A stretch of DNA of 22,153 nucleotides from a virus, in IMG/VR virus record IMGVR_UViG_3300023174_003383, positions 1-22,153 of that record. One strand, 5' to 3'. The position numbers and the translations under genes are program-made. The notes beneath the pieces are model-generated. The model searched no databases, was not told where the DNA came from, and saw only the letters and a program-made list of their open reading frames with translations. Position 1 is the first letter of the stretch; every line of letters starts with the position of its first letter. Shown piece by piece: positions 3,646 to 18,688 of this stretch.

Positions 3646-5538
3646 TTAGTCTGCCTTCTTCTCTGTGAAGCTGGCATCAACTACATCATCTGGTCCAGGC
3701 TGGGAAGGCTGTGCTGCCTGTTCCTTGGCCTGCTTTTTCTCCAACAATGTTTTCATCGCTGGGAAAACCTTGTTGAGCTCTTCAGTGATCTTTTCAGCAT
3801 CATCACCTTTGGCTGCTGTTTCGACTGCGGCAATCACAGTTTCAATTTCTGTGATTTCTGCTTCTGTGAGCTCTGCACGGAATTCTTCAAGATCTTTTTT
3901 GACTTCGTGTACCTGTGCTTCTGCTGAATTTCTTGTGTCGATCAGTGTACGAGCTTTCTTGTCTGCTTCTGCATTCAACTCTGCGTCTTTAATCATAGCT
4001 TCGATTTCAGCTTCTGATAAACCACTATTGGACTTGATAGTGATCTTGTTTTCTTTGCCTGTGGCCTTGTCTTTGGCTGAAATGTGCATGATACCGTTGG
4101 CATCGATATCAAAGGTAACTTCGACCTGTGGCTGTCCTCTACGTGCAGGAGCAATGCCATCTAGTTTGAATTCACCCAACAACTTGTTGTATTGTACAAG
4201 CTCACGTTCACCTTGGAACACTTTGATATCCACAGCTGGTTGATTGTCTTCGGCTGTGGAGAATGTCTGCTGTCCCTTGGTTGGAATGGTTGTGTTCTTT
4301 TGAATGATCTTTGACATCACACCGCCCATAGTCTCAATGCCTAGGCTCAATGGAGTAACGTCTAGCAATAGAACGTCATTGCGATCACCACCTAACACAG
4401 CACCCTGGATAGCAGCACCAACTGCTACTGCTTCGTCTGGGTTGACATCTTTACGTGGTGCCTTGCCAAACAGCTTTTCAACTTCTTCTTGTACCTTAGG
4501 CATGCGTGTCTGACCGCCTACAAGGATAACTTCGTCGATGTCTGAGGCACTCACGCCTGCATCCTTGAGAGCAGTGCGGCATGGCTCTAATGAGCGTGTG
4601 ATCAGTTCGTCCACTAGTTGTTCAAGTTTGCTGCGACTTAATTTTACTGCTAGATGCTTAGGACCACTTGCATCTGCTGTGATGTAAGGAAGGTTGACAT
4701 CTGTCTGAGCCGAGCTTGACAATTCAATCTTGGCTTTTTCAGCAGCATCTTTAAGACGCTGTAAGGCCAACATGTCTTTGCTTAGATCCACACCTTGATC
4801 TTTCTTGAACTCATCTACCAAGAAATCCATGATGCGTTGGTCAAAGTCTTCACCTCCTAAGAATGTGTCGCCATTAGTTGATAACACTTCAATTTGTTTG
4901 TCTCCATCCACATTGGCTATTTCGATGATCGAAACATCGAATGTACCGCCACCAAGGTCGTAAACAGCAATTTTCCTATCAGCTTTATCATCTTTATCAA
5001 CGCCATAAGCAAGAGCTGCCGCAGTAGGCTCGTTAATAATACGCAGTACTTCCAAGCCTGCGATCTTTCCAGCGTCTTTAGTAGCCTGTCTTTGGCTGTC
5101 GTTAAAGTACGCAGGGACTGTGATAACTGCTTGAGTAACTGTTGTACCAAGATAATCCTCCGCTGTCTGTTTCATTTTACGCAGAACTTCTGCTGAAATC
5201 TGCGGTGGGGCTAGTTCTTTGTCTTGTGCTCGAACCCATGCATCGCCATTAGAGTTTTCATAGATTTCGTAAGGCATTAGGTCGAGATCTTTTTGCACAG
5301 CCTGTTCTTTGAACTTGCGACCAATCAGTCGCTTGCTGGCATAGATTGTGTTTTTGGGATTTGTTACTGCTTGACGCTTGGCTGAGGCGCCAACAATGAT
5401 TTCGTCTTGTGTATAGGCTACGATTGAGGGCGTAGTTCTAGCACCTTCTGAATTTTCAATAACTTTGGATTTTCCATTCTCGATAACAGCCACGCATGAG
5501 TTGGTGGTGCCGAGGTCAATACCGATGATCTTAGACAT
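3646..5538 (-). CDS. dnaK: DnaK (Hsp70) chaperone
   Basis: This is a complete 630-residue Hsp70 (E. coli 638) with the bacterial architecture. The ATPase domain opens with [15 protein letters not shown] and includes [31 protein letters not shown] and [11 protein letters not shown]. The interdomain linker is [19 protein letters not shown]. The substrate-binding domain and helical lid follow, ending in DDVVDASF, the conserved C-terminal DDVVDA signature. It has no frameshift or missing motif, so it should be active with host DnaJ and GrpE, which are not encoded nearby. The start at 5538 has AAGGAGA at good spacing. A full bacterial-type DnaK is unusual in a phage and was probably acquired from a proteobacterial host. 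It might help fold virion proteins or protect during stress; the role is inferred. Confidence 0.96.
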
Positions 5539-12989: not shown

Positions 12990-13010
12990 AAAAAGCCCAC
13001 CGAAGTGGGC
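12990..13010 (-). terminator. Rho-independent terminator of pqqA
   Basis: The minus strand reads GCCCAC-TTCG-GTGGGC followed by TTTTTC. A 6-bp GC-rich stem with a UUCG tetraloop and a U-run sits 10 nt after the pqqA stop. Confidence 0.9.
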
Positions 13011-13020
13011 TAGGTCTTTA

Positions 13021-13092
13021 TTATCGATTCATCACGTACATGGTGCATTCGAATCCGTAACGCATTTCAACTGCTTCTGGTTTTGTCCACAT
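13021..13092 (-). CDS. pqqA: PqqA, precursor peptide of pyrroloquinoline quinone
   Basis: This 23-residue peptide starts MWTKPEAVEM and ends YVMNR, nearly the consensus of short PqqA peptides (MWTKP...RxGFEVTMYxxNR). Glu15 and Tyr19, the two residues that PqqE cross-links to build PQQ, are in place as GFE-CTM-Y; Cys16 replaces the usual Val. AAAGGAG stands 7 nt before the ATG. The gene is monocistronic: it has its own -10 element, a 5' hairpin and a terminator. The enzymes PqqB-E are absent here, so the phage would supply substrate to a host pathway. PQQ serves periplasmic dehydrogenases such as methanol dehydrogenase, which suggests a methylotrophic or sugar/alcohol-oxidising host. Confidence 0.9.
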   Translation of the reverse strand: MWTKPEAVEMRYGFECTMYVMNR

Positions 13093-13114
13093 AATAGTAC
13101 TCCTTTTTAATAAA

Positions 13115-13144
13115 CATACTGCATTAGTATGTATCATTATTATA
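13115..13144 (-). promoter_or_regulatory. pqqA promoter -10 and 5'-end hairpin
   Basis: The minus strand has TATAAT (13139-13144) without a good -35 (TGTGTT at 17 bp). The predicted +1 is near 13132. A hairpin CATACT/AGTATG (13115-13131) begins at that point, so the mRNA would carry a stem-loop at its 5' end, then AAAAAGGAG. The other bases from 13145 to 13225 hold nothing I can identify. Confidence 0.55.
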
Positions 13145-16447: not shown

Positions 16448-16455
16448 TATTTATC
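16448..16455 (-). promoter_or_regulatory. Late-promoter-like box before the HNH gene
   Basis: GATAAATA overlaps the TGA stop of ahpD (AGT TGA TAAATA) and is followed by TTTCT and the ATG at 16442. Confidence 0.5.
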
Positions 16456-16960
16456 AACTATTCAGCACCTTTGCTACACTATTCATTACTGCCGCTATTC
16501 TGCCGATGTCTCTCAACTGCTCGACAGTATAACCCATAGTCTTCAAACCATCGTAATGGGCTTTTACGCAAAACTCGCATTTACCAACAATGCTTGCAGC
16601 CAAACTGAATGCTTCAAAGTTTGACTTGGTAGTTCCACCATGACTTGCAATAGCATTCATACGTAACTGTGCTGGCAAACCTTTTAGAGCAGGATCATCT
16701 GCCATTTCTACATAAGGATACCATACATTGTTCTGTGCCATGATACTTGCGGCAGTCATTGCTGACTCTGCGTGAACAGGACCATCTGCTAACAAGATAC
16801 TCAACACCTTACCGTTACCAGTTGCAGCCAATGCTGCTACAGCACAGCCTATGGCCACATCTGCATCTAATGTACTACGCAAAAGGACAGCATCAAGATT
16901 TAACTTGGTGTCCTTTGCGTAGTCTGGCAACGCTTCTTTGATAGCGTCATTGAATGCCAT
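16454..16960 (-). CDS. ahpD: AhpD-like alkylhydroperoxidase, with recoded 3' end
   Basis: This 168-residue protein has the AhpD signature GKCEFCVKAHYDG with redox Cys128 and Cys131 and His135. AhpD regenerates AhpC and has weak peroxidase activity itself. The length is usual (about 175). Its start overlaps the last base of the ahpC stop (TAATG), so the pair is one operon from the 17555-17583 promoter. The oddity is in the last 37 codons: they use AGA for Arg, unlike the CGT of the rest of ahpD and ahpC, and differ from the orphan ahpD end at 15216-15332 by 35 of 111 nt but only 4 residues. The end seems to have come with the downstream HNH cassette. Confidence 0.93.
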   Translation of the reverse strand: MAFNDAIKEALPDYAKDTKLNLDAVLLRSTLDADVAIGCAVAALAATGNGKVLSILLADGPVHAESAMTAASIMAQNNVWYPYVEMADDPALKGLPAQLRMNAIASHGGTTKSNFEAFSLAASIVGKCEFCVKAHYDGLKTMGYTVEQLRDIGRIAAVMNSVAKVLNS

Positions 16961-17499
16961 TATAGTGTCTCTCCGCCTACTGTACGGTTACAAGCGCACA
17001 ACTCGCCTGTTTGTAGCGCATCCAATACACGAAGTGTTTCTTCTGGGCTACGACCAACATTTAAGTTGTTGACAGTAACGTGTTGGATAACATTTTCTGG
17101 GTCAACGATGAATGTTGCACGAAGTGCGGCACCTGCTGGAGCATAGAACACACCTAGTTGTTCAATCAATGACAGCTCGCCACGCTGTGTGTCTGCGAAC
17201 TGTGTATGTGTGATCTTTGCAAGATCTGGATGAGACTTCTGCCATGCTACTTTACAGAACTCATTGTCTGTGCTACCTGTTAGTAATACTGCGTCACGGT
17301 CAGCAAAGTCACCAGCCAACTTATCATATGCTACAATCTCTGTAGGACAAACGAATGTGAAGTCCTTTGGGTAGTAAACGATTACTTTCCACTTGCCTGC
17401 GAATGACTCATCTGTGATATCAAAGAATGCATCTTCTGGTTGTCCTGGCTTGACTCCTGTTACTACAAATTTTTCTAACTTATCGCCAACTGTTTTCAT
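16960..17499 (-). CDS. ahpC: AhpC-type 2-Cys peroxiredoxin
   Basis: This 179-residue peroxiredoxin reduces H2O2, peroxynitrite and alkyl hydroperoxides. The peroxidatic site is FTFVCPTEIVAY (Cys51). The C-terminal resolving region ELCACNR has Cys168 and Cys170, as in mycobacterial-type AhpC that is recycled by AhpD. Substrate-site residues (PTE and R117-like RATFIVDPE) are present. An AAGGAGA ribosome site precedes the ATG. It is driven by its own sigma-70-like promoter and has a 5'-end hairpin. Phage carriage may counter oxidative damage late in infection. Confidence 0.95.
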   Translation of the reverse strand: MKTVGDKLEKFVVTGVKPGQPEDAFFDITDESFAGKWKVIVYYPKDFTFVCPTEIVAYDKLAGDFADRDAVLLTGSTDNEFCKVAWQKSHPDLAKITHTQFADTQRGELSLIEQLGVFYAPAGAALRATFIVDPENVIQHVTVNNLNVGRSPEETLRVLDALQTGELCACNRTVGGETL

Positions 17500-18232: not shown

Positions 18233-18619
18233 GGTAGTTTTGTTTACAAGGTATTTCCTACCCCGGACCGCTGTTTTTTAGGCAGCTAGAGCAAATCTGC
18301 TTTCATTAGCAGCACCGCGAACGGTGTTACCAGTGAAGCTCATTGCGCTGAAGTCAAATGTATCTGCGTTTGCATTTACGAGTTTTGCTTGATTAACGGT
18401 CATCGCCTACCGTGTTGCCGTCTCCATTATCTCACCCTGTCGAAACCATGGCAGGCCCATTTAAACACACTTTGGTTTATTAAGAGTTATGACTATGTCA
18501 AAGAGCTCCTGGGATACCAAACCTGATCTTTTTACGGATTCAAGTATGCTTAGGTGGACCTGGCGGGAGTCGAACCCGCGTCCAGAATGCCTTCACTTTG
18601 AAGGGATTACAACAATTCC
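18233..18619 (-). ncRNA. ssrA: Circularly permuted (two-piece) tmRNA
   Basis: Read on the minus strand, the acceptor piece comes first: hairpin CCTTCA/TGAAGG, T-arm GACGCGGGTTCGACTCCCGCC, acceptor strand CAGGTCC, discriminator A and CC, ending at 18553. After about 94 nt of intervening sequence the coding piece begins at 18458 with GGGCCTG, which pairs with CAGGTCC over 7 bp (one G-U), then GGTTTCGACAGGG as in tmRNA 5' ends. The resume codon is GCA in GTAAAT-GCA-AAC. The tag is 31 codons, beginning ANADTFDF and ending ANESRFALAA, then TAA. ALAA is the ClpXP/ClpAP degron. Permuted tmRNAs occur in alphaproteobacteria, some betaproteobacteria and cyanobacteria. Outer ends are approximate. No strong own promoter is visible; transcription from 19064-19092 through csp is likely. 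Confidence 0.93.
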
Positions 18620-18688
18620 TTACATGAAAACTTCAATCAAAACAAATACAACAATTAAAACTGCTACAATGATTTGATATGCTTTCAT
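18620..18688 (-). CDS. 22-residue single-span membrane microprotein
   Basis: Five nt after the csp stop an ATG opens a 22-codon frame: MKAYQ, then IIVAVLIVVFVLI, then EVFM-stop. The product is a single hydrophobic helix with a positively charged N-terminus, so insertion with the N-terminus in the cytoplasm is expected. There is no clear Shine-Dalgarno; the TAAGTAATATG spacing suggests translational coupling to csp. Its stop directly abuts the tmRNA acceptor piece. It may be a real regulatory microprotein (such as a protease or channel modulator), or just part of the tmRNA leader that happens to be open. Confidence 0.5.
   Translation of the reverse strand: MKAYQIIVAVLIVVFVLIEVFM

Follow-up and report, generated by a model that had tools for sequence, protein, structure and literature searches.

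The window, which is the whole 22,153 nt stretch of DNA analysed here, carries a short gene that was confirmed by its matches to protein family models as encoding PqqA, the precursor peptide of PQQ. We consider it probable (roughly 80%) that phage pqqA is a substrate-only auxiliary gene that would top up a consumable PQQ precursor via the host PqqBCDE. This reading draws on the identity, conservation and architecture of the gene, the absence of pqqE and PQQ dehydrogenase genes from longer virus records, and the gene dosage in the hosts. The coding sequence of 23 codons and a stop (MWTKPEAVEMRYGFECTMYVMNR) is found at bases 13021–13092 on the minus strand, with the ATG at 13092–13090 and the stop codon at 13023–13021. 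The peptide scored above the curated cut-offs of both Pfam PF08042 (28.8 bits, cut-off 21.1, E = 1.2e-6) and NCBIfam TIGR02107 (29 bits, cut-off 20, E = 6.8e-7), and its length falls in the range of about 22–39 aa known for PqqA (PMC2294125). The Glu-x-x-x-Tyr motif is present as E15-C-T-M-Y19. The codons for the residues that make up the two halves of the PQQ backbone, GAA for Glu15 (13048–13050, minus strand) and TAC for Tyr19 (13036–13038, minus strand), are intact, as the first-pass annotation had stated. An upstream extension to 38 aa (ATG at 13137) was rejected, as it starts just upstream of the leader hairpin with no ribosome site of its own seen; the 23 aa start was preferred because it has a ribosome site and agrees with the relatives.

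IMG/VR was searched for pqqA using degenerate DNA patterns. The first scan recovered at least 120 contigs, and all of the matches listed were PqqA frames with a start codon. In the second, Glu15, residue 16 and Tyr19 were left free, and Glu15 and Tyr19 were nonetheless found unmutated in 120 of the 120 matches listed, though exact patterns are blind to pqqA genes degraded at other positions. The two scans together placed pqqA in at least 148 virus contigs besides the window, and no match to the family was found in any of 14 control genomes, so the window reading frame is not a chance occurrence. The frame is also conserved in nine cultured phage records and in three collinear relatives. Neither outcome named beforehand as refuting the first-pass annotation, a frame not conserved in relatives or mutation of Glu15 or Tyr19 in them, was therefore encountered. 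A different PqqA type, I/V-RLGFE-V/I-TMYF, was found in 10 contigs (L003, L008, L010, L014, L018, L023, L030, L034, L072, L112), several of which have little room upstream of the Shine-Dalgarno sequence; these are probably phages of another PQQ-making host group. PqqA of the alphaproteobacterial type was found in only six virus contigs (L285–L290); none was confirmed as a phage and pqqE was over the cut-off in none of the six.

A set of 136 distinct phage pqqA genes, encoding 70 distinct peptides, gave a pN/pS of 0.21 overall and 0.36 at codons unconstrained by the search pattern. Comparison of the window gene with that of the relative L106 revealed six synonymous and two non-synonymous changes, the latter both in codon 16 and altering one residue. 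These ratios point to purifying selection on phage pqqA. They bear on the alternative that the gene is a recent pick-up from the host, kept by chance with no selected role. Capture would be easy, as the hosts have many pqqA copies, but chance retention fits poorly with purifying selection, with the presence of pqqA in unrelated phage types with differing neighbourhoods, and with its retention in compact 35–45 kb phages that have little spare DNA. We regard this alternative as highly improbable.

When the GenBank phage collection was examined using tblastn, PqqA was found in nine Methylophilales phage records representing five phage types (MEP401/402, Venkman, MEP301, P19250A and Melnitz, the last with four isolates), and in an uncultured podovirus from a spring. 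There was no tblastn match for MEP431–434, HIM624-A or a second Venkman isolate, which may be absent from the collection, and we therefore do not claim that every cultured phage carries pqqA. The first-pass annotation had predicted that so short a gene would be missed by gene calling, and the correct frame is indeed not annotated in the cultured phage genomes examined. No feature is annotated where the gene lies in MEP401, MEP402, Venkman, MEP301 and P19250A, while Melnitz EXVC044M and the spring podovirus have an open reading frame annotated on the other strand in its place. In targeted searches of the papers on Melnitz, Venkman, MEP301 and MEP401/402, PQQ did not come up as a function of the phage; the Melnitz paper was found to name it solely as a medium ingredient.

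The peptides of MEP301 (MWTSPKATEMRFGFEVTMYVMNK) and P19250A (MWTTPAATEMRFGFEVTMYVMNK) fall outside the search pattern, as Lys4 is changed in both, and so usefully complement the pattern scans. They are also informative about a second alternative, in which the phage peptide acts as a decoy or competitive ligand, occupying PqqD/PqqE and slowing host PQQ synthesis. Phages often disable host functions, the peptide would be expected to bind PqqD/PqqE, and a peptide with Cys16 might conceivably trap the radical enzyme. However, Glu15 and Tyr19, which a decoy would have no need to preserve together, are retained in MEP301 and P19250A and in all of the matches listed in the scan that left these codons free. 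Many phage PqqA peptides are also identical to the host PqqA, and a decoy role therefore appears very unlikely.

Among 50 longer virus records, each contained exactly one pqqA, and neither pqqE over the cut-off nor a PQQ-dependent alcohol dehydrogenase was found in any of the 50. This result is informative, though most of the records are probably fragments and the absence from any one of them carries little weight. Linkage to pqqBCDE, which is usual for PqqA but not required, was thus not seen in these records, and the description of pqqA as a stand-alone gene was borne out. The same result argues against the window contig, or many of the contigs, being host DNA misfiled as virus. One database match of this kind was encountered, to Acinetobacter phage MD-2021a, and was rejected because that record is a host pqqABCD cluster. 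Against misfiling, pqqA is present in cultured lytic phages whose genomes are complete, and the window, itself an IMG/VR virus record, shares with other virus records the order of its phage-type genes, among them NrdB and Hsp20. Misfiling is an extremely unlikely explanation. pqqA lies on viral DNA, is homologous to a metabolic gene of the host and is under purifying selection in phages, as expected of an auxiliary gene, which would also be expressed in infection and change host metabolism.

Three virus records (L276, L277 and L278) are collinear with the window and all contain pqqA, located in the same block, between AhpC/AhpD on one side and the NDP-epimerase or the conserved open reading frame after it on the other. 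In the window, the AhpC and AhpD peroxide-defence pair is at 16454–17499 on the minus strand; it neighbours pqqA in L276 and L277 and in L121, where pqqA adjoins AhpD in the 163 kb record that holds it. No structural genes were identified in the 22 kb window fragment, and a megablast search of the window against the phage collection returned a sole match of 33 bases inside the tmRNA.

The imbalance between pqqA and the other pqq genes in the hosts is consistent with a supply role. pqqA was found in 185 of 187 Methylophilaceae genomes, with two or more copies in 171 of the 187 and a range of 1–12, while a search of 21 genomes for pqqE found one copy over the cut-off in 19 and two copies in two. 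Published counts are similar, with 3–12 pqqA per Methylophilaceae genome and the other pqq genes single with one exception (PMC4109929), and unlinked pqqA copies in the hosts are also noted in PMC9851590, which cites Ge et al. 2015. At the protein level PqqA exceeds PqqC/PqqE about 20-fold, and changing Glu to Asp or Tyr to Phe in PqqA abolishes PQQ (PMC2294125). The idea in the first-pass annotation that extra copies could raise cofactor supply is supported indirectly, since hosts with many pqqA usually have one pqqE and since PqqA so exceeds PqqC/PqqE. The phage pattern mirrors that of the host, in that the consumed substrate is multiplied and the enzymes are not.

If phage pqqA serves precursor supply, a genuine PqqA precursor would be made from a short self-contained transcript during infection, and the host PqqD/PqqE would join Glu15 to Tyr19. 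Host proteases would then excise the Glu-Tyr pair, and PqqB/PqqC of the host would complete PQQ. As one PqqA is spent on every PQQ, a consumable peptide could suffice without catalytic enzymes. Where a phage shuts off the host genome or degrades it, the peptide alone might in this way keep the PQQ-dependent methanol dehydrogenase supplied, and the phage would benefit from the raised or sustained level of PQQ. As a counterpoint, PQQ enzymes are long-lived, and additional PqqA may make no difference over a single infection. Nor do overexpression studies single out PqqA by itself as the main bottleneck; in Acetobacter, pqqAB gave an increase of 29% and pqqABCDE an eightfold increase (PMC7936290).

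The sequences flanking pqqA, all on the minus strand, include most of the expression signals described in the first-pass annotation. The strong ribosome site is AAGGAG (13100–13105), spaced 7 nt from the ATG. The 5′ hairpin, ACATACT-AATGC-AGTATGT (13114–13132), is present in the predicted structure. The intrinsic terminator, AGCCCAC-TTCG-GTGGGCT followed by TTTTC (12994–13011), has a GC-rich 7 bp stem, a UUCG loop and a T-run; two terminator-like sites were found in the region, compared with 0.4 expected from shuffles. The proposed promoter element stood only in part, as a -10-like TATAAT is found at 13139–13144 but no -35 is recognisable and a sigma-70 scan did not report the site. The block made up of the -10 and hairpin is kept in three collinear relatives (L004, L106 and L264). 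The stem is identical to that of the window in all three, whereas the loop is shared by L004 and differs in L106 and L264. All three have terminators at the matching place.

Across the wider set, 99% of 154 phage pqqA genes have a Shine-Dalgarno sequence, while a GC-rich terminator defined by a strict rule was found for 32% of phage pqqA genes, so the full cassette seen in the window is not universal. The -10-like boxes are present in 45% of phage pqqA leaders compared with 14% of host pqqA leaders. The mean folding z of the leaders was -1.15 for phage pqqA, -0.49 for other phage genes and -1.32 for host pqqA; the better folding of pqqA leaders is a modest, statistical signal. A 356 kb jumbo-sized record, L021 (IMGVR_UViG_3300023174_000036), has a pqqA leader stem similar to that of the window. 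A short predicted transcript with a leader hairpin and terminator might suggest that the locus is mainly a small regulatory RNA in which the reading frame is incidental. However, no Rfam match was found at the pqqA locus, conservation is at the amino acid level while the codons vary, and the hairpin sequences differ among phages whose pqqA genes nearly all retain the Shine-Dalgarno sequence. A mainly RNA role is extremely unlikely, and a peptide-coding gene that supplies PQQ precursor is the reading we retain.

The presence of Cys at residue 16 (codon TGC, 13045–13047, minus strand), where nearly all relatives have Val or Ile, had been flagged as unusual. This was upheld, as the 136 distinct phage pqqA genes include 113 with Val, 21 with Ile and only two with Cys. 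The second Cys16 gene is in L073, where the peptide background is different and the contig showed no collinearity with the window, and Cys16 has therefore probably arisen twice. In the peptide, residue 16 falls between the reacting pair and does not become part of PQQ, and the Cys16 peptide is a putative PqqE substrate.

Phage PqqA is already known in principle, from one Lake Baikal phage reported in 2020. That virus population, VP_266 (Coutinho et al. 2020, PMC7678222), is a predicted Methylophilaceae phage that encodes PqqA together with methanol dehydrogenase, with PqqA read as an auxiliary gene for methanol oxidation. The likeness to the window is clear, but VP_266 also encodes the dehydrogenase, whereas the window, like the 50 longer records, has no PQQ-alcohol dehydrogenase or pqqE. 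The passages of that paper on PqqA do not describe its breadth among phages. A 2026 reservoir study lists pqqA among virus-encoded phosphorus-cycle genes (PMC13188868). The closest cellular counterparts are the stand-alone chromosomal pqqA genes of Methylophilaceae, which also encode 23 aa and lie outside the pqqABCDE operon (PMC4109929; PMC9851590) and in many cases have a folded leader. The window copy differs in being on a phage, and -10-like boxes are more common in phage leaders. The PqqA of Acinetobacter also has the Glu-x-x-x-Tyr motif, 23–24 aa and a Trp near the N terminus but, in contrast to the window gene, it is encoded by the first gene of a pqq operon and has Val at residue 16. 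The Klebsiella PqqA shares all of these features, including the operon position and Val16.

What appears to be new is the breadth of phage pqqA and its absence from the annotations of isolates. In the literature searched, we found no report of pqqA as widespread in methylotroph phages, without PQQ enzymes, in unrelated phage types and missed in cultured genomes. It is likely that nearly all Methylophilales phages carry pqqA, that it has been overlooked in them and that it has been gained repeatedly by unrelated types (podo-, sipho-, myo- and jumbo-sized), with the phage providing a RiPP precursor and the host the enzymes. If so, pqqA could be used as a short sequence marker to assign unknown phages to methylotroph hosts. 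Methylotrophs consume methanol in lakes and coastal seas. The auxiliary genes known from phages mostly specify enzymes, and a phage that carries only the consumed peptide would suggest that the supply of PQQ precursor is one of the limits on infection of methylotrophs. More generally, standard gene calling hides probably functional genes of around 23 codons in phages. As the cultured phages with pqqA include isolates whose hosts are in culture, the idea is directly testable.

The PqqA type, the betaproteobacterial-type tmRNA and the cultured relatives suggest that the host of the window phage belongs to the Methylophilales. This is not certain, since the same PqqA type occurs in Methylophaga. 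Neither AhpD (best match 59% in an order-level sample) nor the tmRNA, which gave no more than short local matches, pointed to a host genus. The nearest NrdB proteins in cultured phages are those of Xanthomonas phage X1 (61%) and Stenotrophomonas phages (54%). The tmRNA, at 18278–18665 on the minus strand, matches both betaproteobacterial and permuted tmRNA models in Rfam, the betaproteobacterial model being the best by E-value, and ARAGORN assigned it an odd, long tag. Two further groups of genes in the window, also on the minus strand, were noted. Overlapping genes at 1587–2805 encode a heme oxygenase (PF01126, 3e-23) together with a bilin reductase of the ferredoxin-dependent kind (PF05996, 1e-13), a bilin-making pair in a phage whose host would be non-photosynthetic. 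A full-length DnaK of 630 aa (3646–5538) lies beside Hsp20 and ClpS in a chaperone and proteolysis cluster, and is conserved (80%) in the collinear record L277.
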